This document shows, piece after piece, positions 646 through 41,047 of a stretch of DNA of 47,928 bases (positions are counted from its first letter, which is position 1; each line of letters opens with the position of its first letter). A model generated the notes under the pieces. It was given only the letters and a program-made list of their open reading frames with translations. It was not told the DNA's origin and ran no database searches. This stretch comes from a virus. Position numbers and translations under genes: made by a program. The stretch is taken from positions 1 to 47,928 of the IMG/VR virus record IMGVR_UViG_3300025410_000030, one strand, 5' to 3'.

Positions 646-687
646 AGCGCGTTGTCAATTAAAATATCTTCTAATACGCAGTAGTGA

Positions 688-1593: not shown

Positions 1594-1595
1594 TC

Positions 1596-2234: not shown

Positions 2235-2261
2235 TCACTAAGGAAACAGAAAGATTCCATT

Positions 2262-2969: not shown

Positions 2970-2970
2970 T

Positions 2971-3468
2971 ATGACCGATCTGCTCGGCTTCCGAACCGTT
3001 GGTTCTGTAGAAGATGATACCAAAGAAGAATATAGTCTTATAACTTCTTTGAAGAAAATGCTTGCTGAAGCATATGTTCTTTATCACACCATCCATGGGT
3101 TCCACTGGAATATAAAAGGTAGTGATTTCTACGAATATCACAAATTCTTTGATGAGATCGTTAGCGATATTTACGATCATATTGATCCAATAGCTGAGAA
3201 CATAATTAAGTTAGGTGGAGAAGCTCCCTTTGTAATGAGCGATCTCATAAAGTTAAGTGATATTGAAGAAGTTGGTCTTATTAGTAAGAAAAAGAAAGAG
3301 CTATCTGCTAAGTTCTATAGTATGAATGAAGAATATATACAGCACATTAAAGATGCGTTCAAGATCGCCAATAATAGTAATGAGCAAGGAGTTGCCAACT
3401 TTATTGCCGAGCGTATTGACGCCCATCAAAAATGGAACTGGTTCCTAAAAGCATCTATTGAGGGATAA
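2971..3468 (+). CDS. dps: Dps-like ferritin
   Basis: A 165-residue DNA-starvation-type ferritin. Family members form 12-subunit cages that oxidise ferrous iron with peroxide and protect DNA. The family signature is clear (HGFHWNIKGSDFYEYHKFF), and the four ferroxidase ligands are present with exactly the spacing of E. coli Dps: H45, H57 (+12), D72 (+15) and E76 (+4). The start is taken at ATG 2971, just after the preceding stop; an ATG 51 bases upstream would overlap the previous gene and add unrelated residues. The next gene starts within its stop codon (TAATG). Iron or oxidant defence during infection, or a capsid-packaged role, are both possible. Confidence 0.9.
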   Translation: MTDLLGFRTVGSVEDDTKEEYSLITSLKKMLAEAYVLYHTIHGFHWNIKGSDFYEYHKFFDEIVSDIYDHIDPIAENIIKLGGEAPFVMSDLIKLSDIEEVGLISKKKKELSAKFYSMNEEYIQHIKDAFKIANNSNEQGVANFIAERIDAHQKWNWFLKASIEG

Positions 3469-3698
3469 TGAATTCTATTTCAGACAACATTCAAAATGTA
3501 GTTGCATTATTAACTGCTATTACCAGCGGGCAAGAAGAATTTGCCTATGAGATGGTTCTAGAGAGTGACCCGGTAGAGTTATTCAGTGCTCTTACTGGAG
3601 TGTTGTTGAGTGCTTTGAATAGACTAGCTGAGCTTGATGGTGTTACAGTAGAGAATAAGCTAAAGACACTCGGAATGCTTGCTTTTAATCCAGAATGA
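3468..3698 (+). CDS. Small hypothetical protein
   Basis: 76 residues, acidic and helical, with a hydrophobic core pattern (ALTGVLLSALNRLAEL). It starts within the stop codon of the Dps-like gene (TAATG) with a GAGGG ribosome site, and its own stop overlaps the next start (ATGA), so all three genes look like one translational unit. No family recognised and no transmembrane segment is convincing. Confidence 0.65.
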   Translation: MNSISDNIQNVVALLTAITSGQEEFAYEMVLESDPVELFSALTGVLLSALNRLAELDGVTVENKLKTLGMLAFNPE

Positions 3699-3997
3699 GT
3701 GAAGAATTTATCTTGCCTGATGGTATAACATTTAATAATGCAGATTCTCAAGAAATAAATTTAGATTTATCTTTTGAGAAGATTAACGATACAAAATGCA
3801 ATAAATGTGATATAATGCTTGAGGCTGTACTTATAACAAATTTTGGTAGGCATGAAGGAATCATAAGAATACCAAGCAATGACAATACAGTTTGGAAAAA
3901 CTCTCTACCAAAGGACCGTGTAAGATCAATTAAGATTCTTAACGAAAAACTTTCAGAGAAGCTTGACAAACACAAAGAAAGACACAAAAATGATTAG
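3695..3997 (+). CDS. Small hypothetical protein with CxxC
   Basis: 100 residues; start overlaps the preceding stop by four bases (ATGA). A single CNKCDIML motif lies near residue 36, followed by a beta-like section with a histidine (NFGRHEGII) and a strongly charged C-terminal helix ending in a Lys/His-rich tail. One CxxC alone may bind metal only as a dimer. Function unknown. Confidence 0.62.
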   Translation: MSEEFILPDGITFNNADSQEINLDLSFEKINDTKCNKCDIMLEAVLITNFGRHEGIIRIPSNDNTVWKNSLPKDRVRSIKILNEKLSEKLDKHKERHKND

Positions 3998-4160
3998 GTA
4001 CAGCACACAACCAAGCCAAGACTCCAACGCATTAACGGACAGTCCTACCTCACCTATTATGACGACAAGAGATAATCAGGGTCTTAATGATGGTGGGAAG
4101 CCAAGCCAGCAGGATAGAGACTTGCAGGACTTAGATGCCGAGGATGTCAACGACAACTAA
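3990..4160 (+). CDS. Small polar hypothetical protein
   Basis: 56 residues if started at the ATG that overlaps the preceding stop by eight bases; an ATG 27 bases upstream is also in frame. The product is polar and acidic with repeated Gln/Asp/Ser and no hydrophobic core (for example SQQDRDLQDLDAEDVNDN), so it is likely disordered. It sits in a gene chain with matching overlaps, which is the main support for it being real. Confidence 0.45.
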   Translation: MIRYSTQPSQDSNALTDSPTSPIMTTRDNQGLNDGGKPSQQDRDLQDLDAEDVNDN

Positions 4161-4162
4161 GG

Positions 4163-5035
4163 ATGACAGTGACCGAACAAGAAGCTGAAAAAGATCCAGC
4201 TACACATATTCTTATTCCAGACACACAAGCAAGAGAAGAAGTCCCGACAGATCACCTATCTTGGATAGGTAATTATATAGTTGAAGAATTCCATGATCAA
4301 GATGTGAAGATTATTCACATCGGAGACCATGCTGATATGCCAGCTCTGTCTTCTTATGATAAAGGGAAGAAGAGCATGGAAGGAAGACGCGTAAAGGCGG
4401 ATATTGATTCTGCCAATGAAGCGTGGCGCATTCTTAACCAACCTCTATACGATTTTAATGACAACCGTCGTAAAACCAAACATAGCACCTGGAATCCTGA
4501 GAGATATATTACTCTAGGGAATCATGAAGACCGTATTACTCGTGCCACTGAGAATGATGCCCAGATGGACGGGCTCTTTGGCCTGGATGATCTTGATTAC
4601 GAGAGAAGCGGCTGGCAAGTATTACCATTTAAAGAGATTCTGTGGCTAGATGGCGTTGCCTATAGCCATTTTTTCTATAGTCCAATGAATGGTCAACCAT
4701 ACAGCGGGAACATAGAAACTCGTTTGAAGAATATCGGGCATTCTTTTTCGATGGGTCATCAACAGACGTTCTTGTATGGTATGCGCTACGTGAATGGTGA
4801 CCGCAGTGGGAATTGCCCACACTCTCAGCATGGTCTAGTGGCAGGTTCTTGCTACCTTCACGAGGAAAATTACAAGGGACCCCAAGGGAATGCCCACTTT
4901 AGAGGAATAGTAATCAAACACCAGGTATTTGATGGAAGTTACGATATCCAACAAATGTCTCTTGATTCGTTGTGCAGAAGATATGAAGGTATGAGCCTTG
5001 AACGATTTAAGAAGCTTAAGTACCCGCACATGTAA
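4163..5035 (+). CDS. Calcineurin-like metallophosphoesterase
   Basis: A 290-residue member of the two-metal phosphoesterase superfamily. The ordered motifs are visible: ILIPDTQ (D20; the usual second His is Gln), IGDHAD (D55), LGNHED (N120, H121), a later YSHFF histidine, and GHQQ near residue 198 in place of the usual GHxH. These ligands hold two metal ions that hydrolyse phosphomono- or diesters. Phage homologues are often annotated as DNA repair exonuclease or phosphatase, but the substrate cannot be assigned here. AAGG touches the ATG, so the GTG six bases downstream could be the real start. Confidence 0.8.
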   Translation: MTVTEQEAEKDPATHILIPDTQAREEVPTDHLSWIGNYIVEEFHDQDVKIIHIGDHADMPALSSYDKGKKSMEGRRVKADIDSANEAWRILNQPLYDFNDNRRKTKHSTWNPERYITLGNHEDRITRATENDAQMDGLFGLDDLDYERSGWQVLPFKEILWLDGVAYSHFFYSPMNGQPYSGNIETRLKNIGHSFSMGHQQTFLYGMRYVNGDRSGNCPHSQHGLVAGSCYLHEENYKGPQGNAHFRGIVIKHQVFDGSYDIQQMSLDSLCRRYEGMSLERFKKLKYPHM

Positions 5036-5038
5036 GTG

Positions 5039-6061
5039 ATGGATTCTCCAAAAACCACACAACGCAAGAATTTTCGCTGCATCTTTAATAATTATGTCTC
5101 AGAATATAATAAGGATGCAGTAGTTCGTTCTGTCATCTCTCAATTTGAGGGATACTTCGCAGAACCCGAAGTCACAGTGACTGAAGATGGATTTATCCTT
5201 TCTCTCATGTTAGGGAGCAACCTCCCAGCATCGGTTGTGAGAGACAAGATCCTCTGGAACCAGTTCATCGAGAGTGTGTCCGCCGCAGACGCGATCCGTA
5301 AGATCCAGATTCTTCGCTTACCTCAATCTAGTAAAGAGAATGAGGGGACCGTAGGAGCATGGGGCCCAAACGGAAGTGATAGTGGAGTTAATGAGAAATT
5401 AGATATTCCATTGGACTTCGTACCTAAGTATAAGATCGATGGTGTGCCAGACGATCCGCTCGGATACCATGCGAGCGTCCATACCGCTGACCCAACCGGG
5501 CAAATGTTGCCAGAAATCTATGGACCAGGATCTGACACGGGTGAGCCAGTGGATGAAGACGTTTTGAGCGATGCCACTGACCTAGAATCAGCCGGTGGGC
5601 ATAAAATACCAAGATTATTTAATGCTGGGTTCAGAAGAGTGGCAATCGATACGGATGTTGGTTCTGCATTCACCCTGAATAAACCAAATGGTTTTCAAGA
5701 CGTGAACACACCACCAGAAACAGCGTTCTTAGACCAGAGAGCTAACCCTGGGACTGGTATCGGTGGAGGTGCCCCCATCAGTGGTGCTAGCTTCTTCGTA
5801 TATGACCCACTGAACGCTCAAGGTACTGAACCGGGTGCGGAGCGCAATAGAGGAGATGCTTCGAGTGCTCCTCTAGGGAATATCTCTGCGAGTAAAGTTT
5901 CAGAAGAAGACGATGAACAAGGAATAAAAGGTCCATATGGTGCGGAGCTCGATGTCCTCGGGGTCGGTGACGAACCACTCGGTGGAGCTTCTTATGGATC
6001 ATATTTTGGTATTAATGAATACTATGATTATGAAGGCGATATAGATGACTACGACATATAA
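5039..6061 (+). CDS. Hypothetical acidic protein
   Basis: About 340 residues; GTG 5036 directly precedes ATG 5039 and either could initiate. Residues 10-100 look like a folded alpha/beta domain, starting NFRCIFNNYVSEYNKDAVVR. The remainder is Gly/Pro/Asp-rich, probably extended, and ends in a strongly acidic tyrosine-rich tail (YYDYEGDIDDYDI). NISASKVSEEDDE near residue 285 carries the short ASK motif shared with the first genes of the window. The stop overlaps the following hydrolase gene by 17 bases. Family unknown; the composition suits a virion-associated linker. Confidence 0.68.
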   Translation: MDSPKTTQRKNFRCIFNNYVSEYNKDAVVRSVISQFEGYFAEPEVTVTEDGFILSLMLGSNLPASVVRDKILWNQFIESVSAADAIRKIQILRLPQSSKENEGTVGAWGPNGSDSGVNEKLDIPLDFVPKYKIDGVPDDPLGYHASVHTADPTGQMLPEIYGPGSDTGEPVDEDVLSDATDLESAGGHKIPRLFNAGFRRVAIDTDVGSAFTLNKPNGFQDVNTPPETAFLDQRANPGTGIGGGAPISGASFFVYDPLNAQGTEPGAERNRGDASSAPLGNISASKVSEEDDEQGIKGPYGAELDVLGVGDEPLGGASYGSYFGINEYYDYEGDIDDYDI

Positions 6062-6581
6062 GGTATATGCCGCAGGAGAAGCACCAAGTAAATACGTCCC
6101 CGGAGATTTCATCCTAGTATCGACCAAGGGTGTACTCGCCAAATTAATTAGGTTTGGTCAATTTTTGCGCTACCACGGCAAGATGAAACCATACGCGCAC
6201 TGGAACCACTCAGCCATGATCATAGATGAGGATGGATCCATAGTTGAGGCAATTGGCCGTGGGGTTGTAGTAGATAACATAAGTTCTTACAAAGATGTAG
6301 AATATTATTATGTAAGTACTAAATTAAACAAGCAAAGTCGTGACCAGGCGACAGCCGCATGCAAAAGCTTTATCAAAGACAAGTACGGATGGCTGACTAT
6401 TCTCAGCATAACGTTGGAATTAACAACTGGTATAAAGTTCCAATTTAGTAGTAGTAATACCATGATATGTAGCGCAGTCGTTGCGCAAAGTCTTTGGGCT
6501 GCTGGTTATATCTTTGATAAAAACACATATCAAATGATGCCCGCAGATCTCGCCTCAGCCTTCAATATAATGCATAATTAA
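6045..6581 (+). CDS. Permuted papain-like cysteine hydrolase (YiiX/YebB-like)
   Basis: 178 residues matching the circularly permuted NlpC/P60 layout, in which the catalytic His precedes the Cys. GDFILVST opens the barrel, WNHSAMII supplies the likely catalytic His (H55), an acidic residue follows in VEAIGRG, and MICSAVVAQSLW supplies the likely nucleophile (C142). Members cleave amide bonds in peptidoglycan peptides or lipid-linked substrates. No signal peptide is seen. It lies just upstream of the candidate holin, so a role in lysis is reasonable, though a different NlpC/P60-type enzyme sits in the tail region. Substrate unproven. Confidence 0.72.
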   Translation: MTTTYKVYAAGEAPSKYVPGDFILVSTKGVLAKLIRFGQFLRYHGKMKPYAHWNHSAMIIDEDGSIVEAIGRGVVVDNISSYKDVEYYYVSTKLNKQSRDQATAACKSFIKDKYGWLTILSITLELTTGIKFQFSSSNTMICSAVVAQSLWAAGYIFDKNTYQMMPADLASAFNIMHN

Positions 6582-6597
6582 TAATTATGATAAAAGC

Positions 6598-6626
6598 TTG
6601 ACTTTTGATAAAAAAAGCAATAATAT
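6598..6626 (+). promoter_or_regulatory. Sigma70-like promoter
   Basis: TTGACT, a 17-base AT-rich spacer, then TAATAT: one mismatch to consensus in each hexamer and optimal spacing. It lies in the short gap after the cysteine hydrolase gene. Initiation six to eight bases after the -10 box would fall at or next to the ATG of the following small gene, giving a near-leaderless transcript that continues into the holin and tRNA region. Confidence 0.55.
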
Positions 6627-6632
6627 TAATTT

Positions 6633-6803
6633 ATGAAAAAAGCAACAATAACAATCAGTTATGATGCTAGAGACGCACAAAGCGATGAATTGGCAAGCCA
6701 GGAAATCAGCGAAACTATTGCTGGTCTTTTGAATAGTTTGCGGACTCAAGTCAATGGCGTACAAGTATCTGTAAAAATCCAAAATAATAAGGAGAATAAA
6801 TAA
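6633..6803 (+). CDS. Small hypothetical protein
   Basis: 56 residues beginning MKKATITISYDARDAQ. The pattern is a beta strand followed by an amphipathic helix and a second strand (VNGVQVSVKIQ), so a small alpha/beta fold is plausible. No ribosome site precedes the ATG; instead a strong promoter is located so that the mRNA would start at about this codon. The stop is immediately followed by the ATG of the candidate holin. Family unknown. Confidence 0.5.
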   Translation: MKKATITISYDARDAQSDELASQEISETIAGLLNSLRTQVNGVQVSVKIQNNKENK

Positions 6804-7130
6804 ATGAGCGCAACACCTGTTGTATCGACAACTGTGCGGGTTACACTCCGTGCTTTTATCTCGGCAGCTGTGGGTTCTTTGATCGCCTGGGGCGTTGCTA
6901 AGTGGGGAAGTTTCCACGCTGGCACCTTTGCTTTCTTGGTTCCCGTAGCTTCTGGTTTGTATTACACCGTGATCAATTGGTTGGAGAAGAAGTACCCGTC
7001 CCTTGGATGGTTGCTTGGTACTCTCCCACAGCCTAAGGGCAACCCTGCTCCTCCCGCTGTAACGCCAACCCCGGCTCCTACACCTGCTCCGGCCCCAGCA
7101 CCCGCTGCTGGTAAGAAGCCAACGAAGTAA
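6804..7130 (+). CDS. Candidate holin, two membrane segments with Pro/Ala tail
   Basis: 108 residues with two hydrophobic segments at about 13-32 and 40-58, separated by a short Trp/Gly turn, then a Pro/Ala-rich tail (73-103) ending in basic residues. Size, two helices and charged tail suit small phage holins, which form membrane lesions that time lysis and release or activate the cell-wall hydrolase. An AAGGAG site lies nine bases before the ATG. It is adjacent to the permuted papain-like hydrolase. Other small phage membrane proteins look alike, so the function is probable rather than certain. Confidence 0.6.
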   Translation: MSATPVVSTTVRVTLRAFISAAVGSLIAWGVAKWGSFHAGTFAFLVPVASGLYYTVINWLEKKYPSLGWLLGTLPQPKGNPAPPAVTPTPAPTPAPAPAPAAGKKPTK

Positions 7131-7139
7131 AGTAGTTTA

Positions 7140-7213
7140 GGCCCCATAGCTCAACTGGTCAGAGCACCACCCTGTCACGGTGGGGGTTGGGGATTCGAGC
7201 TCCCCTGGGGTCG
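7140..7213 (+). tRNA. tRNA-Asp (GTC)
   Basis: A complete cloverleaf: seven-pair acceptor stem GGCCCCA/TGGGGTC with one G-T pair, D arm, anticodon stem CCACC/GGTGG around loop CTGTCAC, T arm GGGGA-TTCGAGC-TCCCC, and discriminator G. The anticodon is GTC. CCA is not encoded. The ATG of the next gene is only four bases after the tRNA. Confidence 0.93.
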
Positions 7214-7217
7214 CTAT

Positions 7218-7802
7218 ATGCAAACATTGAAAGAAATATTAGAAGACAATATCGGACTTACATGGTTTGCCGAGAACAATGTTGGTACCGACAAAGGTAG
7301 TGGTCATCACGGAGAACACAACTACATTGATGGGTTCTACGATAAAGAATTCGCTAGGTATCAAGACAAAGAAATCTCCCTATTAGAGATCGGTATCTTT
7401 GGCGGAGCATCACTAGCTCTCTGGAGTAAATACTTTACAAATGCCAACATTGTTGGTATAGATATTGCGGACAACGTCCCGGAGAAATACAAGTATCTTG
7501 ATAGAGTTACTCATGTATTTAAGGACGCATACTCATATGATGTTGCCGAATCTCTAGGTAATTTTGATATCATCATTGATGACGGCCCCCACACTCTGGA
7601 TTCAATGATTCAGTGCATCAGACTATATTTTGATAAGATTAATGATGGTGGTATTCTAGTTATAGAGGATTTACAGGATCCAGCGTGGTTCGATCTTCTT
7701 AGAGAGAATGTACCTAACGAATATCAAGACAATATTGAATACATCGATCTTAGAAAAAATGTCAATAGACATGATGATCTATTGTTCATAGTTCGTAAGT
7801 AG
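7218..7802 (+). CDS. Class I SAM methyltransferase, macrocin O-methyltransferase-like
   Basis: 194 residues with the Rossmann methyltransferase core. SLLEIGIFGGASLALW (54-69) is the SAM-binding motif I, IVGIDIAD (78-85) ends in the acidic residue that contacts the ribose, and IIIDDGPHTLDSM (118-130) has the DDGxH pattern typical of the TylF/macrocin O-methyltransferase family. These enzymes methylate sugar or other hydroxyls. The cytidylyltransferase and glycosyltransferase-like genes nearby suggest a small sugar- or polymer-modifying set, target unknown. There is no normal leader; TGGGG in the tRNA acceptor strand could serve as ribosome site. Confidence 0.8.
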   Translation: MQTLKEILEDNIGLTWFAENNVGTDKGSGHHGEHNYIDGFYDKEFARYQDKEISLLEIGIFGGASLALWSKYFTNANIVGIDIADNVPEKYKYLDRVTHVFKDAYSYDVAESLGNFDIIIDDGPHTLDSMIQCIRLYFDKINDGGILVIEDLQDPAWFDLLRENVPNEYQDNIEYIDLRKNVNRHDDLLFIVRK

Positions 7803-7808
7803 TATCAT

Positions 7809-7884
7809 TCTACCCTAGCATAATTGGCAATGCACAAAACTGTTAATTTTGAAAATCTCCGTTCGAGTCGGAGGGGTAGAGCCA
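7809..7884 (+). tRNA. tRNA-Asn (GTT)
   Basis: Acceptor TCTACCC/GGGTAGA, anticodon stem CAAAA/TTTTG with loop CTGTTAA, T arm CTCCG-TTCGAGT-CGGAG, discriminator G, and CCA encoded at the end. The anticodon is GTT. It lies seven bases after the methyltransferase stop and two bases before the serine tRNA. Confidence 0.93.
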
Positions 7885-7886
7885 GG

Positions 7887-7974
7887 GGAAGCATGGCTGA
7901 GAGGCTAAAGGCACCGGTTTGCTAAACCGGCAGCGGTTCGCCGCTCGTAGGTTCGAATCCTACTGCTTCCGCCA
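7887..7974 (+). tRNA. tRNA-Ser (GCT)
   Basis: Class II tRNA with the long variable arm expected for serine (CAGCGGTTCGCCGCT region). Acceptor GGAAGCA/TGCTTCC, anticodon stem ACCGG..CCGGC region around loop TTGCTAA, T arm with GGTTCGAATCC, discriminator G, and encoded CCA. The anticodon GCT reads AGC/AGT. Confidence 0.94.
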
Positions 7975-7991
7975 TAAATAAAAGGATGATT

Positions 7992-8420
7992 ATGACCACT
8001 AGAGTCTATACTGGAGGGACATTCGATATGTTCCATCCTGGCCATGTTAATCTATTAAGACGATGCAGAGAAATATCCGGTCCAGACGGTCACGTAACGG
8101 TTTCTCTTAACACAGATGAATTTATTGAACAATATAAGGGCAAAAGGCCGGTCTGTAATTTTACTGAGCGTAGAGATGTGCTTCTGAGCTGTAAATATGT
8201 CGATGAAGTCGTGGCGAACATCGGTGGTGTTAATTCTAAGATCTCCGTAGAGCTCTGTATGCCTGATTATATAGTTATTGGGTCAGACTGGGCCGAAAGG
8301 GACTACTACAAGCAAATGGGATTTGATCAGAAGTGGCTTAATGAGCATAATATTGGGCTCGTCTATGTTCCATATACACCCGGCGTTTCTTCCACTGATA
8401 TTAAGAAGAGAATGTCTTGA
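7992..8420 (+). CDS. TagD-like cytidylyltransferase family protein
   Basis: 142 residues, a complete small nucleotidyltransferase. YTGGTFDMFHPGHVNLL carries the HxGH nucleotide-binding motif (H15, H18), and GVSSTDIKKR near the C-terminus matches the (I/V)SST-x-I-x-x-R signature. Family members such as glycerol-3-phosphate cytidylyltransferase use CTP to activate a phosphorylated alcohol or sugar for teichoic acid or surface polymers. The ATG at 7992 is chosen because AAAGG lies at proper distance; the ATG six bases upstream touches that site. The next gene overlaps its stop. The acceptor substrate is not determinable. Confidence 0.85.
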   Translation: MTTRVYTGGTFDMFHPGHVNLLRRCREISGPDGHVTVSLNTDEFIEQYKGKRPVCNFTERRDVLLSCKYVDEVVANIGGVNSKISVELCMPDYIVIGSDWAERDYYKQMGFDQKWLNEHNIGLVYVPYTPGVSSTDIKKRMS

Positions 8421-8965
8421 AAGAACTGATTGTGGTTGCCACTTCTCCTGGCAGGGAAGAATGGGCTAAAGATTGTTCAGAATCTATAAAAAGACCGCAT
8501 ATGGTTCTAAGTATATACGGTTATGAACTTGGTAAGATCAAGTGGCTTTATGAAAACACTAATTTAGATAGATTTGCCATTTTACAAGATAGTGTTGTTA
8601 TAACAAACCCAGATATTTTTGATAAAATTTGGGATACTCCAGGCAGTATCTGTCTCCATCACGAAGCACGCCATATGAGCTGCTATCTCGGTGTATACGA
8701 AAGAAAAGTCTTAGACAAGATTGATATACCAGTTATAAATACAAAAGATGCATCAGTATTTAATGAGAGTGCCTGGATAACCAATTATCTACAGGCTGCT
8801 GATGAGACTGTTTGCTTTGACACTGACGGATCCTTTGGGGCCATAGAACCTCGTCATGGCAGAGACAATCTTATATACTCCAATAGTTTTTTAATAAAAT
8901 ATAGGGGGAATTGGGGGCAGTTACCATTCGACGGGAGTGACCCACAAGACGCAAAGGAAAAATAA
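8417..8965 (+). CDS. Glycosyltransferase-like protein (GT-A type, tentative)
   Basis: 182 residues starting at TTG, which overlaps the preceding TGA. The beginning (KELIVVATSPGREEW) and the FAILQDSVVITNP section look like the beta strands and DxD-like metal site of nucleotide-sugar transferases with a GT-A fold, but only one Asp of that site is clear (D58). A conserved-looking FGAIEPRHGRDNL follows. Overlap with the cytidylyltransferase suggests that they act together on an activated sugar or alcohol. The family assignment is weak; an unrelated alpha/beta enzyme cannot be excluded. Confidence 0.5.
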   Translation: MKELIVVATSPGREEWAKDCSESIKRPHMVLSIYGYELGKIKWLYENTNLDRFAILQDSVVITNPDIFDKIWDTPGSICLHHEARHMSCYLGVYERKVLDKIDIPVINTKDASVFNESAWITNYLQAADETVCFDTDGSFGAIEPRHGRDNLIYSNSFLIKYRGNWGQLPFDGSDPQDAKEK

Positions 8966-9117
8966 TGGACAAAAAAGAGATAAAATTCAATATTCCAATG
9001 AGATTATTTGCTAGAATAGAGAGGGTAGCAGATTCTTTAGGATATAATGATGTGGATGAATTTATGAGCTATTACATGAGTCTTAATTTCCAAGTTTTTG
9101 ATACTCCTGAAGAGTAG
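8965..9117 (+). CDS. Small ribbon-helix-helix-like protein
   Basis: 50 residues beginning MDKKEIKFNIPMRLFARIER, then VADSLGYNDVDEFMSYYMS. A short strand followed by two helices, with a basic residue pattern on the strand, is the layout of MetJ/Arc/CopG DNA-binding proteins. It begins within the stop codon of the previous gene (TAATG). If real, it could be a small transcriptional regulator; no operator can be assigned. Confidence 0.5.
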   Translation: MDKKEIKFNIPMRLFARIERVADSLGYNDVDEFMSYYMSLNFQVFDTPEE

Positions 9118-9126
9118 TAGCATAGA

Positions 9127-9197
9127 TCTGGGGTAGTGTAAAGGTAGCACGCAACTCTTTGAAAGTTGTAGCCCTCGTTCGACCCGAGGCCCCAGAG
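9127..9197 (+). tRNA. tRNA-Gln (TTG)
   Basis: Acceptor TCTGGGG/CCCCAGA, anticodon stem CAACT/AGTTG with loop CTTTGAA, T arm CCTCG-TTCGACC-CGAGG, discriminator G. The anticodon is TTG. CCA is not encoded (CAC follows). The D arm is short but pairs. It begins the second tRNA group, which fills the 370-base interval between coding genes. Confidence 0.88.
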
Positions 9198-9199
9198 CA

Positions 9200-9232
9200 C
9201 TGAGAATTGGGGTTCGGTTCCCTATTCCTCAG
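9200..9232 (+). other. tRNA-like minihelix (acceptor plus T arm only)
   Basis: CTGAGAA and TTCCTCAG form an imperfect acceptor-like stem stacked directly on TGGGG-TTCGGTT-CCCTA, which has the length and TTC loop of a T arm. There is no space for D or anticodon arms. It lies between the Gln and Tyr tRNAs. It is either a decayed tRNA that lost its middle or a processed hairpin within the tRNA transcript. Confidence 0.4.
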
Positions 9233-9237
9233 CAAAT

Positions 9238-9321
9238 CGATGGGTGGCGGAGTGGCCAAAGGAATCTGGCTGTAAACTAGCTCCTTCGGGTACGGGAGTT
9301 CGAATCTCTCTCCATCGACCA
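9238..9321 (+). tRNA. tRNA-Tyr (GTA)
   Basis: Acceptor CGATGGG/TCCATCG, D arm, anticodon loop CTGTAAA giving GTA, a long variable arm (CTCCTTCGGGTACGGG region) as expected for bacterial tyrosine tRNA, T arm with GTTCGAATC, discriminator A, and encoded CCA. Confidence 0.92.
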
Positions 9322-9322
9322 A

Positions 9323-9401
9323 CCGGGTAGGAGCGACGTTGGTAGTTGCTGGCATTCTTATAAAGTGTTGATCCCTGGTTCGATTCCAGGTGCCCGGACC
9401 A
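9323..9401 (+). tRNA. tRNA-Ile (TAT)
   Basis: Acceptor CCGGGTA/TGCCCGG, anticodon stem GCATT/AGTGT with loop CTTATAA, T arm CCTGG-TTCGATT-CCAGG, discriminator A, encoded CCA. The anticodon TAT reads AUA, a codon this phage uses often. Position 8 appears to be G instead of the usual T, so the fold there is slightly irregular. Confidence 0.85.
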
Positions 9402-19111: not shown

Positions 19112-22100
19112 ATGGCGTCAAAAGACTGGAGTGCCTCTTCGGAGCTTAACCGAATGAGAGCATCTGGGATAACCCTTCCTAAAAACCCCATCGCTGGGCG
19201 TGTCGCCGCACGTGACATGCTGAACCGAGCTAAGACAAGTGGGTCGATGGCTAGCGAAGTAGGACCATTGGCTATGGCCATGAGCGGGCCTCCGGAAGGC
19301 CGTCAACGCCTCAACAAACTAGGTTCTGACTTCCTAGCAGAAAACGGTATGGCACGGACTCAGAATCGTAAGCTTGGTGCCGCAACTGGTAGCGATGCAC
19401 AATGGGCTTGGCCAAAACTTCATGACCCATTCGAGTACTGGCGTGAACGTTGCGTCTTGCCCGGAGAAGAAATCACTCTTCTTGATGGTCCAAAGAAGAT
19501 CGAAGATGTAACGTATGGTGATCAAGCCCTAACACACATGGGCCGTTATCGTCGCGTCCTTGACCTCGGTAATCAAGAGTATGAGGGCAAGGTCTATGAG
19601 CTGAAGCCTCGTTATCGTACTTCTATCAAGGCGACTGCTGATCACCCAATTTGGACACTCCGCGAAGATGGCGGACAATTCATTCACGTCCAGGATCTAA
19701 AGCCAAATGATAAGATTCTTTTCCCAGTAGATCGTAAGATCGAAGACAAAGACTTCATTGATCTTACAGAAATAATTGATCACTCTGACTTGGTCATTGA
19801 GAACGGCTATTTCACTCGTAAATTGAGTGAAAAAAGAAATGCATCACCAAAGCGTCCGACAGGCAAAATTGGTACGCCAATTAGTTCTTTACCAGTAGAG
19901 ATTGAATTAACTGATGATTTCCTCTGGTTCCTTGGGCTATACATCGCTGAAGGCTCTACTGGTGGCACAGATAACAAAACGGTTCACATTTCTTTGTCCA
20001 CAAAAGAAACAGATTTAATAAATAGAACAGTTAATATTCTTGAAAAGCTCACTGGCAAAGTAGCAGCTATTCGTGACCATACGAAGTATGGTGACAATTC
20101 TGTAATCATTGAACTCACAAATATTCCGTTGTCTCGTGCTCTGCCAGTCCTTTGTGGCAAAGGATCATATAATAAGCACTTTCCAGAATGGGCGCAATTC
20201 TTGCCAGAAGACAAGCAGAAGGCGTTGCTGCGTGGTTACTTTGATGGAGACGGTTGCTACCAGCCAGACATCTCTTCTTGTTTCACTTCATCTAACCATT
20301 TGCGTGATCAGATCCTCCAGATGATGGCAAGAAATGGATTCTTCCCATCTGTCTATCACAGAACCACTAAGTCATTCTCAAAGAAGATCGACGGTAAGAA
20401 TATTGTTCTTAGTCGGACAGAGAATAGCGCGTTCCTGAATTGGATGGATATCCACATTTTTGATGAGATTGATGATGATGTTATTGTCAAGCGCGGTCGT
20501 AAATACCCAATTGAACATGTAGAAGAAGGCGTCTGGGTCCCCGTAGAAGAAATAATCGAATCAGATTACAAAGGTACTATTTATAGTCTTACGATTACGG
20601 AAGACCACTCGTATTGTGTTTCTGGTATTGCAACACGCAATACATGGTGGTTCAATATGGAGGACCCCGATGAACAGACTCGTAAGATCCGAGACTGGGC
20701 TCGTCTTCTTTACACTACTCACCACTTGGTGCCTGGTCTTATCGACATTTATACTCGTTTCCCACTTCTAGATATTGAGTTAGTTCACCCGGATAAGCGG
20801 ATCGCTGATTTTTATAATGACTTATTCTTTAATGGTCTTAACTACCAGGAATTTCTGTATGATTTAGGTAGAGAACATTGGGTGGTTGGCGAAGCTTTCG
20901 CTATGGGATCCTGGCACGATGGTATCGGTGCTTGGGAAGAGGATGAACTTATTAATCCCAACGACGTTATCGTTGCTAAGAACCGCGCTTTAAGAACATA
21001 CCAATACCACGTCAAAGTGCCTGAGGAAATCAAGCGTCTTATTGAGCGTCGTGATCCTCCTCAGGAATACGCCATGCTCATGCAGCTTTACCCGGACGTA
21101 GTCGCCTGGGCTAGACAGGATAAAGAGATCCCTGTTTCTGATGTGATTATGAAGCAGGTTAAGTTCTCCGCCAATTCGTGGAGCGAGCATGGTACTCCTA
21201 TTCTACTTCGTGCTTTTCGCATGCTTATGCTTGAGGAAAGTCTTAACGCCGCGCAAGACGCTATTGCTGACCGACTCTATTCTCCTCTTATTCTGGCTAC
21301 CCTTGGTCTGCCTGACGTAGACCAGGATGGTCCGTGGATCCCTGATGCTCAAGAGCTCCAGAGTCTCCGTGACGACCTTGCGATGGCTATCAACTCGGAC
21401 TTCCGTCTTATGACGTATCACCACGGGCTACAGATCCAAAACGCTTTTGGACGAGAGTCTATGCCCCGCTTAGACCAAGACTTTATGAGAGTCCAGACCA
21501 ATGTCATGGGCGTCTTTGGTATCGGTGCTGACCTTATCCAAGGTGGTCAGGGTGGGACATACGCTTCTGGAGCTTTGAACCGTGAGCTTATTACGCAGAT
21601 GCTCTCTACGTATCAGAATAAGATTAATAAGTTCTTCCGTAGCCGTATGGAACCCGTAGCAGAGAGGCAGGGCCACTATGAGATGCGTAACGTGGGCGGT
21701 CAGCATGTTCCTGTTATGGAAACTGTTCTTATGGTCGATGAAGAGACTGGCGCTGAGTACGTTGAGGAACGCCCCAAGCTAGCTATACCTGAGGTCAGAT
21801 TCCGCTCTATGAACCTCCGTGATGAGACAGTAGAACGTGGGTTCTTGCAGCAATTAGCTGCCAGCGGGTTCCCGATCTCTCTTGGCACGCTTGCCGTCAA
21901 TATCCCAATTGACTTCGATGATGAGCTCGAGGCCCGTAAGGAAGAGAAGATCAAGACTGTTGTCGAAGAGCAGAAGTTCAAAGCAGAGCTCTTCAACCGC
22001 CTCTATACTCTACAACTTCCTATCCCGCCAGAATACGTTCAGGAGTACCAGGCGTATCTGGCCATGCTCGAGGATCCGTCTCTTGGCGCCCAGCTAGCTC

Positions 22101-22627
22101 CGGGAGCGATGGCCGGTCTTGTTACTCCTCCTGCTGCTCCTAATATGACTGATGTTGGCGCTATGGGTAGTGATGCCGCCGCAGGTGCACAAGTTTATCC
22201 AAGTATAAACCAGGAGGCTCGCCAACGCCCAGAGATCTCCTATGAGCAACGTAAGTCTCAACCCAAGCCTTCCAAAAAGGGTCCAAAGAATGGACCGAAG
22301 AAGAAGACAGCCTCTGTAGTCGGATGGGATGAAGACGATGAGTTCCAGGGTCGGGTTGAGTACGGTGATCGTATGAAATTCGCCGTGCCTTTTGAATCGA
22401 AGAAACGCAAGCGTATGAAGCTCGCTTCTGGTATGAAGATTATTATTGATGATTCATACGAGAAATTTGATGAAAATGAATTTATGAAGCATCTATCATC
22501 CATCATTGATGAGCCTATGATCCAAGAGCCTACTGACCTTATGGAGCATAGTTCTGGTGAAGGTGGTATGGATCAGCCCGCAAGAAAACAAATTGATCCA
22601 ACAGAAGAAGATTCTTTCCCTGAATAG
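19112..22627 (+). CDS. Portal protein interrupted by an intein
   Basis: 1171 residues as encoded; removal of residues 114-510 leaves a 774-residue portal. Portals form the 12-subunit ring at one capsid vertex through which DNA is packaged and ejected. Portal-like features after the intein are WWFNMEDPDEQTRKIRDW, a long helical and beta domain with TRFPLLDIEL, a helical stem region, and a late helix with SRMEPVAERQGH. The C-terminal 150 residues are charged and contain KKKTASVVGW and KLASGMK. Position ahead of the prohead protease, scaffold and capsid genes supports the call. Splicing is needed to make functional portal. Confidence 0.85.
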   Translation: MASKDWSASSELNRMRASGITLPKNPIAGRVAARDMLNRAKTSGSMASEVGPLAMAMSGPPEGRQRLNKLGSDFLAENGMARTQNRKLGAATGSDAQWAWPKLHDPFEYWRERCVLPGEEITLLDGPKKIEDVTYGDQALTHMGRYRRVLDLGNQEYEGKVYELKPRYRTSIKATADHPIWTLREDGGQFIHVQDLKPNDKILFPVDRKIEDKDFIDLTEIIDHSDLVIENGYFTRKLSEKRNASPKRPTGKIGTPISSLPVEIELTDDFLWFLGLYIAEGSTGGTDNKTVHISLSTKETDLINRTVNILEKLTGKVAAIRDHTKYGDNSVIIELTNIPLSRALPVLCGKGSYNKHFPEWAQFLPEDKQKALLRGYFDGDGCYQPDISSCFTSSNHLRDQILQMMARNGFFPSVYHRTTKSFSKKIDGKNIVLSRTENSAFLNWMDIHIFDEIDDDVIVKRGRKYPIEHVEEGVWVPVEEIIESDYKGTIYSLTITEDHSYCVSGIATRNTWWFNMEDPDEQTRKIRDWARLLYTTHHLVPGLIDIYTRFPLLDIELVHPDKRIADFYNDLFFNGLNYQEFLYDLGREHWVVGEAFAMGSWHDGIGAWEEDELINPNDVIVAKNRALRTYQYHVKVPEEIKRLIERRDPPQEYAMLMQLYPDVVAWARQDKEIPVSDVIMKQVKFSANSWSEHGTPILLRAFRMLMLEESLNAAQDAIADRLYSPLILATLGLPDVDQDGPWIPDAQELQSLRDDLAMAINSDFRLMTYHHGLQIQNAFGRESMPRLDQDFMRVQTNVMGVFGIGADLIQGGQGGTYASGALNRELITQMLSTYQNKINKFFRSRMEPVAERQGHYEMRNVGGQHVPVMETVLMVDEETGAEYVEERPKLAIPEVRFRSMNLRDETVERGFLQQLAASGFPISLGTLAVNIPIDFDDELEARKEEKIKTVVEEQKFKAELFNRLYTLQLPIPPEYVQEYQAYLAMLEDPSLGAQLAPGAMAGLVTPPAAPNMTDVGAMGSDAAAGAQVYPSINQEARQRPEISYEQRKSQPKPSKKGPKNGPKKKTASVVGWDEDDEFQGRVEYGDRMKFAVPFESKKRKRMKLASGMKIIIDDSYEKFDENEFMKHLSSIIDEPMIQEPTDLMEHSSGEGGMDQPARKQIDPTEEDSFPE
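19451..20641 (+). mobile_element. LAGLIDADG intein within portal gene
   Basis: 397 residues in frame. The N-terminal splice residue is Cys (portal 114, CVLPGEEITLLDG), block B is TADHPIWTL (H178), and the C-terminal block is YCVSGIATRN with terminal Asn 510 followed by Thr as +1 nucleophile. The penultimate residue is Arg where His is commonest. Two endonuclease motifs, LWFLGLYIAEG (271-281) and LLRGYFDGDG (372-381), are the paired LAGLIDADG helices with acidic catalytic residues. It should self-splice and cut inteinless portal alleles. Confidence 0.92.
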
Positions 22628-34965: not shown

Positions 34966-37764
34966 ATGGCTATTAACTATGTACAAAGCTCTGCAGTAGT
35001 AACGAGTGGCGGACCAGCGTCGATCACCATCTCTGGCGTGACACCAGGCAACCAGCTCATCTTCAACATCAACGTTGAAGCTGCGTCACAACCATCTATA
35101 ACAAGCGTTGCCGATAGTAAGACCAATACTTGGTCAAAAGTATACGGAACGTCTTCTGGTGGTTATTTCACTCAACAGAACGAGATATGGTTCTGTAACT
35201 CAGCAGCTAGTGGTAATACTACTATAACTGGTACATTCACACCGGTAGGAACGTACGGAAACGGCGTTAGCCTGACGGTGTTTGAATTTAGTGGTATTGG
35301 TGGTGTCGATGGATCAGCAACATATAATACTGCGAGTGGAACACAGAACCCAAATGTTACGATAACGCCTAATCAATTCGGGGATCTTCTTCTCGGATAT
35401 TTCCCAGATGCCAACTGGGGACCAAGCGCTCTACCGGGAGTTCCATGGAATAGCTTTACCAATGGAGCATCTCAAGCGTTTGCTTGGCAAGTATACCCAA
35501 GTACTAGCCCAACGAACCCCACGTGGACGCTGGTAGGAAATACACTTACATGGGGTGTTATCGGGGCTGCGTTCTACCCTGCGATTAACCCATCGGGGTC
35601 TCTCGCTAATTATCCAGGGTTTATGGGAGATATTCTGCTAGGGGCAAGCCCATTGGGTACTGGCGGGACTATTGTCCATAATATTTATGTAAAATTAGCA
35701 TTAATTGTTTCTACGAGCATTAGTACAACTAATAAATTTGCTCATAGAATAAAGACTTCAAATGTTATTCAAACATCATTGTCGAATGTGTCTAGAGCTC
35801 TAGCAAGAGTAAGACAATCTGCTGTCGTTGCCACTAATTTAGTAACTAGTAGTAAACTCTTTAAAAGAGTAAAAAACTCCGCTGTCGTTGCCACTAATTT
35901 AGTAACTAGTAGTAAACTCTTTAAAAGAGTAAAAAACTCCGCTGTAGTGCAGACAAGTATTGCTAATAGTGTAAAGACCATAAAACGGATAAAAACATCA
36001 GTCGTTGATGCTACGAATCTAATTAATACAGTTAGAATAAGATCAAAGAATAAAGCTATATCAGTAGTACAATCTGCCCTGATAACTTCTACACGCTTGC
36101 GTTCAAAAGTTAGATCGATAACATTAGTTCAATCTTCTTTATCGATAGCTAAAAAAACACTTGCTCGAGTAAGAACTACTAAAGTAACATCTACACAATT
36201 AGTGCAGATTATAAGATCTATAAAAAGAATAAGAGTAACAACTGTAATACAAACTAATCTTGCAATAGCTATTAAAACAATTAAACGTGTTAAAGCAACT
36301 ACTGTTATCCAGATACCATTATCGATAGCTAAGAAGACAATATCAAGAGTCAAATTATCTTCCGCTAATCTAGCAAACCTAGTCAAATCTGTGAAGATTT
36401 TCTCTAGGGTCAAAAAATCTATCGCAGTAGGTACTAATCTAATCCGTTCCAATAAGGCTTTGAATAAATCGTCTAAAGTGATACAAACGTTACTTGCCAC
36501 TTCTTCAAAAGCAGCAAAGCACTTAAGAACAGTTCTTGCGAATGCTATAAACTATGTTCTACCTAAGAGAGTAGACCAGATATTCCGCTATAGCACTGTT
36601 AGAGCAATAAACCTAATAATATCTACAAAGAAGTTCGCTCGTGTTCGTATTGTTAAACCAATACAGGTATCTACCGCTATTGCTGTAAAAACAGCTAAGT
36701 ATCTTAGAAAAACGACCGTAACTTCCACGAATCTTGTTAAGAGCTTGCGCGGGAAAGCAAAATCCGCGCTGGTGACAGCAACCTCACTGGTCACGTCATC
36801 GAAGCTTTTCAAGAGAATAAGAATCTCCGTTGTTGTTCAAACTCCGATAGTTTATTCGGTAAAATTGCTAAAGAGAATTAGAAAAGCTTTGGCAACAGGG
36901 ACGGATGCGGCTCTAAACAACAGGACAATAATCCGCATAAAGACGAGCAAGGCGATCCAAACTTCGCTGACTATAGCAAAGAGAATATCAGGGAAAACTA
37001 GAACTGCTGTGGCCACCGCCATCTCTTCCGTGAAGATAGCCAGGAAATTTAATAGAGTCAAAAATACAATCGTTACTGCGGTGGATCTTATAACCAGCAC
37101 TAAAACAGCCAAACGCATAAAGACGAGTAAAGTCGTACAGATCCCTCTTTCGTTCGGCCTCAGAGGCGGATACCACATAAAAACCGCCGTAGCGAACCTA
37201 GTTACTCTTGTCAGAGTACAGAGAACTAGAAGCAAGACCGTAAGAGTTATTGGTATTTCTCTGGTTAAAGTTGGTAGAGGGCTGGGCCGTCTGGCGGGAG
37301 CAATAGCCGTACCGCTTGTGTACTTAACTAAGAGATTCAGCAGAAAACGTCAGGCTGTTGCCCTACAAGTGGTTTCCGCAACAATAACCAGGAACGTGAA
37401 AGTAACCCGCCGAGGGACCGTAACAGTCAGCTACCACATCGGGACGAGTAAAGGCAGAACGAAGTTTAAGCAGGCAATCGCCGGTCTTATCGGGTTAGCT
37501 AAAGTAACCAGAGCTTACATAATTAACATTAAATCGAAGGAAGATTCCAATGTACAACCAATTAGTAAAATTAATAATTATGTAATAACTAATAGTTCGC
37601 TGGATAACGTGGGCAATTTCTCGCAGGGCGTAGATTCCCCGGCCTCTACGTACCAAGAGCCGTTCGTTGACAACCCTGGTAATTATAATGAACCAACGGA
37701 TAATCCACCGAATGATCATTCTGAGCCGGAGAACGCCTCTGGCGAGGATATTGTCCCGTTCTGA
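34966..37764 (+). CDS. Large protein with about thirty basic 20-residue repeats
   Basis: 932 residues. Residues 1-240 are a beta-sandwich-like domain (QSSAVVTSGGPASITISGVT opening) resembling concanavalin-type or fibre-anchor domains. Residues 245-857 are a run of 20-residue repeats with consensus near S-x-V-V-x-T-x-L-(x5)-K-x-x-K-R-(I/V)-K-(T/N), nearly devoid of acidic residues. The final 75 residues are acidic, Pro/Asn-rich. The regular period suggests a solenoid shaft with a highly positive face, perhaps binding DNA, teichoic acid or other anionic polymers. No known repeat family matches by eye. The fibre region placement implies a tail-attached role. Confidence 0.72.
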   Translation: MAINYVQSSAVVTSGGPASITISGVTPGNQLIFNINVEAASQPSITSVADSKTNTWSKVYGTSSGGYFTQQNEIWFCNSAASGNTTITGTFTPVGTYGNGVSLTVFEFSGIGGVDGSATYNTASGTQNPNVTITPNQFGDLLLGYFPDANWGPSALPGVPWNSFTNGASQAFAWQVYPSTSPTNPTWTLVGNTLTWGVIGAAFYPAINPSGSLANYPGFMGDILLGASPLGTGGTIVHNIYVKLALIVSTSISTTNKFAHRIKTSNVIQTSLSNVSRALARVRQSAVVATNLVTSSKLFKRVKNSAVVATNLVTSSKLFKRVKNSAVVQTSIANSVKTIKRIKTSVVDATNLINTVRIRSKNKAISVVQSALITSTRLRSKVRSITLVQSSLSIAKKTLARVRTTKVTSTQLVQIIRSIKRIRVTTVIQTNLAIAIKTIKRVKATTVIQIPLSIAKKTISRVKLSSANLANLVKSVKIFSRVKKSIAVGTNLIRSNKALNKSSKVIQTLLATSSKAAKHLRTVLANAINYVLPKRVDQIFRYSTVRAINLIISTKKFARVRIVKPIQVSTAIAVKTAKYLRKTTVTSTNLVKSLRGKAKSALVTATSLVTSSKLFKRIRISVVVQTPIVYSVKLLKRIRKALATGTDAALNNRTIIRIKTSKAIQTSLTIAKRISGKTRTAVATAISSVKIARKFNRVKNTIVTAVDLITSTKTAKRIKTSKVVQIPLSFGLRGGYHIKTAVANLVTLVRVQRTRSKTVRVIGISLVKVGRGLGRLAGAIAVPLVYLTKRFSRKRQAVALQVVSATITRNVKVTRRGTVTVSYHIGTSKGRTKFKQAIAGLIGLAKVTRAYIINIKSKEDSNVQPISKINNYVITNSSLDNVGNFSQGVDSPASTYQEPFVDNPGNYNEPTDNPPNDHSEPENASGEDIVPF
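35698..37536 (+). repeat. Array of 60-bp (20-residue) repeats
   Basis: About 30 consecutive 60-base units coding the basic repeat. Codons drift from AT-rich at the beginning to more GC-rich at the end, while the amino-acid pattern persists, so the array is old and under selection at protein level. Confidence 0.8.
35821..35940 (+). repeat. Perfect 60-bp tandem duplication
   Basis: Two identical 60-base copies, 35821-35880 and 35881-35940, each coding one repeat (AVVATNLVTSSKLFKRVKNS). Complete identity amid diverged units shows a recent duplication and explains how the array grows. Confidence 0.97.
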
Positions 37765-37815: not shown

Positions 37816-38313
37816 ATGACCGTCAAAGATACTCGTCTTACAATCGTTTCGTGGGCTTCCAAGTGGGGCGTCGGGAATAAGCGCTATTTCCAGTACTCCA
37901 AGGGGCCTGAGCGCATGGATTTTTTGAAGCACCAAAGAGGGTACGTCCCTCTTTCCCTAGATTGCTCCGCTGCGGTTACTCTGTGGTATTGGGCTGCGGG
38001 AGCTCAAGACCCCAATGGGCTTCACTACGATGGTGAAGGATACACCGGGACACTCCTGAGCAATGGCGTAAAAATTGGCCTGAAGCAACTTCAGCCAGCT
38101 GACGTTATTGTTTACGGCCCTGGCACAGGAGTGCACGCCGTGCTTGTCGTAGACGCTACGAACAAAGCCAACCCGCTCTGTGTTTCGATGGGAGAAGACG
38201 GGGATCCAAGTTTCGTTCGTCACTCCGTGCTCCTTGGGCTGGGTGAGCCAACATTTCTCCGCTACCACACTGGGACCACAGGGCCCGTTTACAATCCACC
38301 AGCAGTTAAGTAG
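37816..38313 (+). CDS. NlpC/P60-type cell-wall hydrolase
   Basis: 165 residues with AGGAG ribosome site. PLSLDCSAAVTLWYWAAG has the DCS nucleophile motif (C50), GPGTGVHAVLVVD supplies the His (H107), and the usual ADVI strand precedes it. This is the order of NlpC/P60 cysteine peptidases, which cleave peptidoglycan stem peptides. No signal peptide. Located among fibre genes, it could be a virion-associated lysin for entry or the lysis enzyme; the candidate holin is 30 kb away. About 50 bases upstream hold an AT-rich gap with TGTAAAACAA. Confidence 0.75.
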   Translation: MTVKDTRLTIVSWASKWGVGNKRYFQYSKGPERMDFLKHQRGYVPLSLDCSAAVTLWYWAAGAQDPNGLHYDGEGYTGTLLSNGVKIGLKQLQPADVIVYGPGTGVHAVLVVDATNKANPLCVSMGEDGDPSFVRHSVLLGLGEPTFLRYHTGTTGPVYNPPAVK

Positions 38314-39266: not shown

Positions 39267-40133
39267 ATGAGACCAAGACCAATACCAATGTATAGCGTGG
39301 AGCCCATCGGCATCATGACGTATTCGCTGGGTGCTCTGACAGATCCTGACAACAAACTGGTTTATGTCGAAGTGGTGAATACTGATAATAATCTGGTGGT
39401 TGTGCCAAGCGGGACACAAACAACTTGGGAAGGCACCGGAACCTATCAGTACACATTTAACTCTAGTCAAACTGCCGAGCAAGGCAATTATGCCGCAACG
39501 TATACATACACGATTAGCGGCTCTCCGCGAACATATGTAGATTATCTCGTCATCACCGATCAGATGCCCTACTGGAGCAATCTAGACACCAATACGCGGG
39601 AAATAGCGACAGGTATCGTTCACAGACTGGATAAGAGCTTCGACAGCACGGCGGGAGGACCTTATCTCCAAGAACTACAACAAAGCGGGTTCATTATCTA
39701 CGAAGAAGTAGCTATGGTCATGCAAGACGAAACCATGGACTATATCAACTTTGAATTCCAGCCGATATTCAATCCCCCATACGATATTGGGCTCAACGCG
39801 CAAGTTCCATTCCCCACCACATACTACGGGGTGCTGGCTAACCAAACATACGCTCATTTCCTAAAGCACATTGCCCGTAACTACATTGAACAACCGTCGC
39901 CGGAAGGCATGAACGCCGCCTGGATGAACCGTAGAGATTACTATAACAGATGGTGGCAACTCTATCTATTTGAGAAAGAGATAGCTGATAAGCAACTCCG
40001 ACAGATGAAGCGTCAATTCATGGTTGGATCCAAGCGTAGTCTGCTTGTAGCGGGTGGATTGATTCCACGAATGTTTGTTAATCCTGCAAGACCACATTTT
40101 GCTTATGCCGCAGTCAATATGTCGGGCGTTTAG
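39267..40133 (+). CDS. Connector/neck protein with Ig-like N-terminus
   Basis: 288 residues. Residues 15-100 look like an Ig-like beta domain (KLVYVEVVNTDNNLVVVPSG). A helical C-terminal part has HRLDKSFDSTAGGPYLQEL and many Tyr/Trp/Arg. It lies ahead of genes resembling stopper and terminator proteins, so a head-tail adaptor role is likely but not established. The end (AVNMSGV, stop) is mirrored by the end of the following homing gene, and 12 bases (GCAGTCAATATG) are shared. Confidence 0.6.
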   Translation: MRPRPIPMYSVEPIGIMTYSLGALTDPDNKLVYVEVVNTDNNLVVVPSGTQTTWEGTGTYQYTFNSSQTAEQGNYAATYTYTISGSPRTYVDYLVITDQMPYWSNLDTNTREIATGIVHRLDKSFDSTAGGPYLQELQQSGFIIYEEVAMVMQDETMDYINFEFQPIFNPPYDIGLNAQVPFPTTYYGVLANQTYAHFLKHIARNYIEQPSPEGMNAAWMNRRDYYNRWWQLYLFEKEIADKQLRQMKRQFMVGSKRSLLVAGGLIPRMFVNPARPHFAYAAVNMSGV

Positions 40134-40174: not shown

Positions 40175-41047
40175 ATGCTAGCAGGTATGAGTACTTATAC
40201 CTGTGTCGTTTGTAATGAAGAAAATGATGGTGGCGTAACTAGAAAAATCTGCGCTGATTGTAAAGATATACCCCGATATTGCAAATGTGGTTGTAATACC
40301 AAGCTTTCATCATCTGTTTATGCAGGAGCAAAATTTGCTCCAGGACATAACGTTTATTTACAGAGCAAAGAAGAAATTGTTAACAGAGGGAAGAAAGGGC
40401 ATAAGAAAAGTATGGATCACTTCCCAATTATTAAAAAATATACATGTCGTGTTTGCAACGAAGAAAAAGAAGAGACTTTGACACGCCCCGGTCCTAGTCG
40501 TAAAACGTGTGAAGCATGCCAGGATAGAGAGATTATCTGCGCGTGCGGTTGTGGAACAGTGATTAAATCTGATAAACATCATCAACCAAAATATGCTGTT
40601 GGGCATAATACTAGAGCTTTAACTTTTGAAGAACAAAAAAGACGCAATGCTAAAAGATTATCTCATCATAAATATGATGATGAATTTCGTAAAAAAATGT
40701 CCGAAAAGATTGTACGTCTTCATAAAGAAGGTAAATTCCTCAATCTCTATGGCTCAAACAATAAATCTTCTAAGGTTGAGTTGTCGCTCAAACCCGTGCT
40801 TGAACCTCTTGGATACGTAAGTACACAGGATAAGAAATACCACATTGGTAATTCAAAGATAGGTGTCCACATACCAGATTATGTCAATCGCTCTGAACGA
40901 AAGATCGTAGAAGTATGGGGAACATACTGGCATCGTGGCGAGAATCCCCAAGATTTAATTGATTGGTACGCAGAACAGGGATGGACCGCTCAGGTGGTAT
41001 GGGAAAATGAAGTCCCCGCGTTTGCAGTCAATATGGGAGGAGTATAG
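40175..41047 (+). CDS. Vsr-like homing endonuclease
   Basis: 290 residues from the first ATG; a second ATG is four codons later. N-terminal zinc clusters (C10/C13/C26/C29, CKCGC, C91/C94/C112/C115, CACGCG) precede a basic linker and a very short patch repair-type nuclease: SKVELSL (E202), HIPDYVNRS (D235), IVEVWGTYWHRG (E246, W252, H253) and VVWENEV. The last residues, AVNMGGV, copy the end of the gene upstream. AT-rich base use contrasts with the neighbours. It likely cuts phage DNA lacking it near the connector gene junction. Confidence 0.82.
   Translation: MLAGMSTYTCVVCNEENDGGVTRKICADCKDIPRYCKCGCNTKLSSSVYAGAKFAPGHNVYLQSKEEIVNRGKKGHKKSMDHFPIIKKYTCRVCNEEKEETLTRPGPSRKTCEACQDREIICACGCGTVIKSDKHHQPKYAVGHNTRALTFEEQKRRNAKRLSHHKYDDEFRKKMSEKIVRLHKEGKFLNLYGSNNKSSKVELSLKPVLEPLGYVSTQDKKYHIGNSKIGVHIPDYVNRSERKIVEVWGTYWHRGENPQDLIDWYAEQGWTAQVVWENEVPAFAVNMGGV

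Follow-up and report, generated by a model that had tools for sequence, protein, structure and literature searches.

The repeat gene and its neighbourhood

The DNA analysed here, hereafter called the window, is a virus record of 47,928 bases. PHROGs matches identify its major head protein, portal and sheath, and a gene for a protein with a basic repeat array is found between the first and the last of these (Table 1). This gene is located after a fibre gene and directly upstream of a lysin gene, and a phrog_4492 fibre and a Gp53-like fibre are encoded around it. The neighbouring genes match structural families, and the repeat gene is inside the virion structural module. An earlier sequence-only reading had placed it in the tail region, but the position between the major capsid protein and the sheath fits the head, neck or tail, and the assignment should be widened to these three.

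Table 1. Positions in the window of the repeat gene, its parts and the lysin gene, and sizes of the arrays in related loci
Feature	Position	Strand	Description
Whole gene, 932 aa	34966..37764	+	N-terminal module, basic 20-residue array, acidic C-terminal tail
N-terminal module, aa 1-235	34966..35670	+	Gly/Ser/Thr-rich, few charges; without family match
Basic repeat array, aa 236-862	35671..37551	+	~27-31 units, mostly 20 residues/unit, some 18
Recent 60-bp tandem duplication	35805..35945	+	2.3 copies; 65 nt identical at +60
Array C-terminal cap, aa 793-852	37342..37521	+	QVVSATITR...TVTVSYHIGTSKGRT..AIAGLIG
Acidic C-terminal tail, aa 863-932	37552..37761	+	Three [YH]xEP motifs, terminal GEDIVPF
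NlpC/P60-CHAP-type peptidoglycan hydrolase	37816..38313	+	Weak direct matches; conserved neighbour of the slot
Array in L055			~10 units; protein of 871 aa
Arrays in L012 and L029			16 units each; proteins of 462 and 577 aa
Array in L013/L027			25 units; protein of 739 aa
Array in L043/L048			80 units; protein of 1770 aa

The sequence-only reading had described about thirty basic repeats with a period of 20 residues and a scarcity of acidic residues, and both descriptions hold. Over aa 241-860, the lag-20 identity is 0.253, as compared with 0.092 +/- 0.011 for 1000 shuffles (z 14.3), and 27 and 31 units are counted by a position-specific model and an HMM respectively. The C-terminal half of the array (aa 501-860) is less regular (lag-20 z 4.1), and 18-residue units near aa 481, 579 and 757 represent phase slips. 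The 627 residues of the array contain 127 Lys/Arg and only 6 Asp/Glu, so that its net charge is +121, or approximately +4 per 20 residues. The protein is the most basic one encoded by any ORF in the window, with +0.113 per residue for the whole protein and +0.074 for the runner-up. The consensus of the window units is R-[VI]-[KR]-x-[ST]-x-V-x-Q-T-x-L-x-x-[SA]-x-[KR]-x-x-K, and positions 3 and 17 are Lys or Arg in every unit scored. The acidic tail has a net charge of -10 over 70 residues.

The exact 60-base duplication that had been noticed in the array is also found. Bases 35821-35885 (65 nt) are identical to the sequence 60 bases downstream, and an older third copy, which precedes them, differs at 4 of the 60 bases. 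The accompanying claim that the array is still growing holds only for a single event, because this is the sole recent duplication within the window array; no copy-number difference is detected between the window and two other contigs with the same gene (932 aa each). Likewise, no length difference is detected among seven L013-type contigs (742-codon ORFs) or between L043 and L048 (1770 aa). The L043 gene contains one exact repeat, of 26 nt, and the L013 gene contains no exact repeat of 24 nt or longer.

NLPC_P60 matches are obtained for lysin orthologs at L013 6491-6979 and L055 7598-8281, the latter being fused to PG_binding_1. The lysin adjacent to the slot is exchanged among relatives (L055 7598-8281; L060 9300-9998), and its variants consist of NlpC/P60 alone, NlpC/P60 with PG_binding_1, or a GH25-like domain with PG_binding_1.

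The host of the window phage is probably an actinobacterium, because the capsid gene gives short DNA matches, with identities of 76-79%, to Rhodococcus, Mycobacterium and Gordonia phages (135-165 kb). The phage is presumably of freshwater origin, as judged from the metagenome identifiers of the closest contigs. The product of window 39267-40133 is homologous to gp107 of Rhodococcus phage E3, annotated 'structural protein', and the corresponding E3 interval encodes a putative tail fibre, a putative amidase, a Hep_Hag structural protein and several 'structural proteins'. The small genes upstream of the amidase or hydrolase gene in E3 and Finch show no clear likeness by eye. In freshwater actinophages, a variable island containing part of a tail fibre protein has been described, with a proposed role in host recognition (PMC10202952).

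Elsewhere in the window, the portal gene (19112-22627) carries an in-frame intein at approximately aa 112-510 (Pfam Intein_splicing, 44.5 bits with a cut-off of 35.8; LAGLIDADG_3, 47.9 bits), and the portal family phrog_2833 matches aa 514-1068 of its product. The 40175-41047 ORF contains paired Cys-rich motifs with weak similarity to Vsr/DUF559-type endonucleases, and its product is possibly a mobile homing-type endonuclease; it adjoins the gene used as bait below in some relatives only (L010, L021, L025, L028 and L030). Six tRNA genes (Asp, Asn, Ser, Gln, Tyr and Ile) form two clusters within 7140-9401, and two short exact tandem repeats, of 21-bp and 15-bp units, are located within 1-150.

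Related phages and selection on the repeats

A search of IMG/VR with 39267-40130 as bait yielded 39 related loci, and the slot of the repeat gene was read where the locus reaches the lysin gene. In most relatives, the slot directly upstream of the lysin gene holds an ortholog whose C-terminal tail is acidic ('...EP...GEDVVP'). Repeat-less phages mostly retain a short form of it (86-174 aa), the C-terminus of which is in most cases an acidic tail that contains EP motifs together with GEDVVP, GGDTVP or GTDIVP. The exceptions are L019, in which only a remnant is found, and L026, in which nothing recognisable is found. A holin identity for the short ortholog was set aside, because it has no membrane-like segment by eye. 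The basic 20-residue array, where present, precedes the acidic tail. Array-bearing phages are scattered among repeat-less ones on a tree of the bait protein, in which many forks are weakly supported. This result suggests that arrays were probably gained and lost, or the slot exchanged, more than once.

The fibre regions of these phages also contain oddities. L043 encodes Cys-rich 'GCTANGCTAYGCT' runs (5476-6969) and a low-complexity, 1694-aa 'ATLSGQMVTANSNIATISG' repeat protein (26-5110), and L029 encodes a FFPPYFPPPP run (135-1058).

The C-terminal 142 residues of the window protein match the long members and the short orthologs with E values of 6e-23 to 5e-9 in a small set. When this region is searched with phmmer, E values of 5.9e-23 for L029, 1.4e-18 for L006 (109 aa) and, as the weakest, 5e-9 for L021 are obtained. 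The acidic tail and the C-terminal part of the short orthologs without repeats are homologous, and the cap is the array segment with the strongest conservation between phages. In contrast to this shared C-terminus, three unrelated N-termini are found. The N-terminal 235 residues of the window protein are present only in the window phage and two identical contigs, L055 has approximately 530 different residues, and the others have a region with a YEGYRGG-type motif.

A unit HMM built without the window sequence detects the window array with 16.1 bits (E 1.1e-4), while the best of 200 shuffled controls scores 4.6 bits. In the reverse search, a model built from the window units only detects nothing in the other arrays, indicating that the window units have diverged from them. 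The 163 units give the consensus [KFRL]-phi-[RK]-x-[AS]-x-[AV]-x-x-[TIV]-x-L-[AVI]-x-x-x-[KR]-x-x-x, in which Arg or Lys occupies position 3 of 99% and position 17 of 74% of the units.

Omega is 0.22-0.41 for whole genes, 0.32-0.43 for the repeats (0.32 for L013 versus L027 and 0.43 for L043 versus L048) and 0.04-0.05 for the ends (L013 versus L027). These values indicate that the gene encodes a real, selected protein, of which the ends are most constrained, and the repeats are under purifying selection. A frame artefact is rejected, because omega is clearly below 1 in the annotated frame only and is approximately 1 in the two other forward frames.

Predicted fold and comparison with known systems

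Searches of Pfam, NCBIfam, PHROGs and PDB sequences give nothing above noise for the array, the N-terminal module or the tail. With hmmscan against Pfam at E<=10, no family, including the beta-solenoid families FHA, pentapeptide and RTX, is reported for the window protein and only sub-threshold noise for the other array members. Two family members have no tblastn match in 50,697 phage records; in tblastn searches of cultured phages, nothing matches the window protein, the N-terminal module, a short ortholog or the 1770-aa member, and no relative is detected when GTDB genomes are scanned with the family alignment. An 18-residue 'KALAGTLT...' repeat that may occur in other bacteria plays no part in these comparisons. 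No nucleic-acid-binding family is matched, the best hit being phrog_4003 with an E value of 6.4, and no lectin or known receptor-binding domain is matched by the N-terminal module. A literature search found no described basic 20-residue phage repeat, the comparison with FHA/CdiA being the only relevant item. These results support the view that the repeats are unlike common fibre repeats. As judged from its sequence, the array family is previously undescribed and is missing from curated databases and sequenced cultured phages at the sensitivity used.

AlphaFold2 monomer models based on register-checked repeat alignments have a mean pLDDT of 40.4 (six window units) and of 33.3 (eight L043 units). 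Strands dominate both models, at untrustworthy confidence, and neither a strand periodicity (lag 2) nor a helix periodicity (lags 3, 4 and 7) is seen in the hydrophobic autocorrelation. In a charge-hydropathy plot, every array is just on the folded side, so that the array is not predicted to be disordered throughout. The sequence-only reading had proposed a new solenoid. The novelty agrees with the failure to match any known repeat family, but the structure predictions are too low in confidence to bear out or reject the solenoid. Gly and Pro account for 1.8-6.0% of the residues in six arrays, and so low a content speaks against solenoids with tight turns and against beta-spirals. The failure of the monomer predictions would be in keeping with an obligate oligomer.

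The FHA-1 repeats of filamentous haemagglutinin and the CdiA shaft (PF05594) resemble the array in having approximately 20 residues per repeat and tens of units, and in combining an adhesin shaft with a separate receptor-binding module. However, the window array is basic and Gly/Pro-poor, has a phage virion setting and lacks a Pfam match. The published FHA-1/CdiA model has a rise of 4.8 Å per 20-residue repeat (PMC5371414), and on this analogy 29 units would span approximately 14 nm and 80 units approximately 38 nm. The quadrilateral beta-helix of pentapeptide-repeat proteins (PF00805) also has 20 residues per coil, and the mean hydropathy of the array has a similar, weak 2.5-residue component (144 degrees). 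However, this family is not matched in Pfam, Lys/Arg at unit position 17 would occupy a core position, and the 5-residue periodicity is not seen, the lag-5 autocorrelation being approximately 0 or negative.

Triple beta-spiral shafts, such as those of adenovirus fibre and reovirus sigma-1, consist of approximately 15-residue repeats with conserved Gly/Pro turns. They share with the array short repeats of mixed hydrophobic and polar residues, and an oligomeric shaft such as theirs would account for the failure of the monomer prediction, but the array units consist of 20, 18 or 21 residues and contain 2-6% Gly and Pro. Modular phage tail fibres with variable tips are similarly encoded in the structural module, exchange terminal modules and evolve fast. 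The phrog_4492 and Gp53-like fibres of the window are, however, neutral (Lys and Arg approximately 2%), whereas the repeat protein is strongly basic, keeps a fixed period of 20 and has no sequence match. The array is probably best filed as a new repeat family among phage fibres or adhesins with a tandem-repeat shaft.

Proposed function and alternatives

The gene probably encodes a sticky stalk of variable length on the virus particle. Binding of the array to an anionic polymer or DNA is plausible from its charge. The reading that is tentatively preferred is that the protein is a modular virion fibre or adhesin, with a cationic shaft that binds an anionic cell-surface polymer. The acidic C-terminal module, which is kept even in short repeat-less orthologs, would most likely anchor the protein on the particle or on a partner, the basic array, which is expandable, would form an extended cationic shaft, and the exchangeable N-terminal module would be distal and provide specific recognition. 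Through multivalent and reversible contacts with anionic polymers of the host envelope, for which wall or lipoteichoic acids and acidic polysaccharide are candidates, the shaft would keep the particle at the envelope, and attachment would occur near the site of action of the neighbouring wall hydrolase. Reach and avidity would be set by the length of the array, which would be altered by unit duplication and loss. Against this reading, the structure predictions have low confidence, the N-terminal module matches no lectin or known receptor-binding domain, the array is not essential, because many relatives do without it, its very low Gly and Pro content is unusual for beta-solenoid or beta-spiral shafts, and the adjacent endolysin-like gene could mean a role in lysis.

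It is also conceivable, but somewhat doubtful, that the protein is a structural shaft in which the basic residues serve for assembly, either in an intertwined (e.g. trimeric) filament or by pairing with the acidic tail or a partner, and of which only the N-terminal module touches the host. The failure of the monomer predictions despite a conserved repeat, as for an obligate oligomer, the strongly acidic tail in the same chain and the fibre genes close by are consistent with such a shaft. However, the charge of the array far exceeds the neutralising capacity of the tail, the short orthologs carry the tail without the array, and no known shaft family is matched.

A role of the array as a polycation in lysis or entry, in which it would direct the adjacent peptidoglycan hydrolase to the anionic wall, retain it or help it there, or would disturb the membrane, is unlikely. 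Its immediate and conserved linkage to an NlpC/P60 or GH25-like lysin and its cationic, moderately hydrophobic composition favour this role, but the ORF is separate and is not fused to the lysin, the slot is within the structural module, the short orthologs have neither a basic array nor, by eye, a transmembrane-like stretch, and the exchange of the N-terminus is fibre-like.

The two remaining alternatives fit the data least well. Low-complexity filler that arises from slippage, is largely disordered or aggregation-prone and has little specific function would account for the low pLDDT, the elevated omega of the repeats relative to the ends and the abundance of odd low-complexity runs in the fibre genes of this phage group, but it is quite improbable in view of the position-specific conservation over 163 units and divergent phages, the omega values well below 1 and the location on the folded side of the charge-hydropathy plot. 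Still less probable is a packaged or injected virion protein whose array condenses or escorts DNA, as the high positive charge and near absence of acidic residues would allow, because the array is absent in close relatives, its beta-branched composition is not histone-, protamine- or AT-hook-like, no DNA-binding family is matched above noise, and the exchangeable N-terminal module better suits surface exposure.

A broader proposal, which is rather doubtful at present, is that the array represents a new structural class, namely a cationic, Gly/Pro-poor filament of 20-residue repeats, probably homo-oligomeric, that varies from 0 to approximately 80 units inside one conserved small protein and tunes electrostatic attachment to the host. 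Usual phage fibres read as neutral and Gly/Ser/Thr-rich, whereas the shaft predicted here is strongly cationic and periodic. The range of unit numbers in one gene slot is a natural length series, which could be used to measure how electrostatic, non-specific attachment contributes to phage adsorption.
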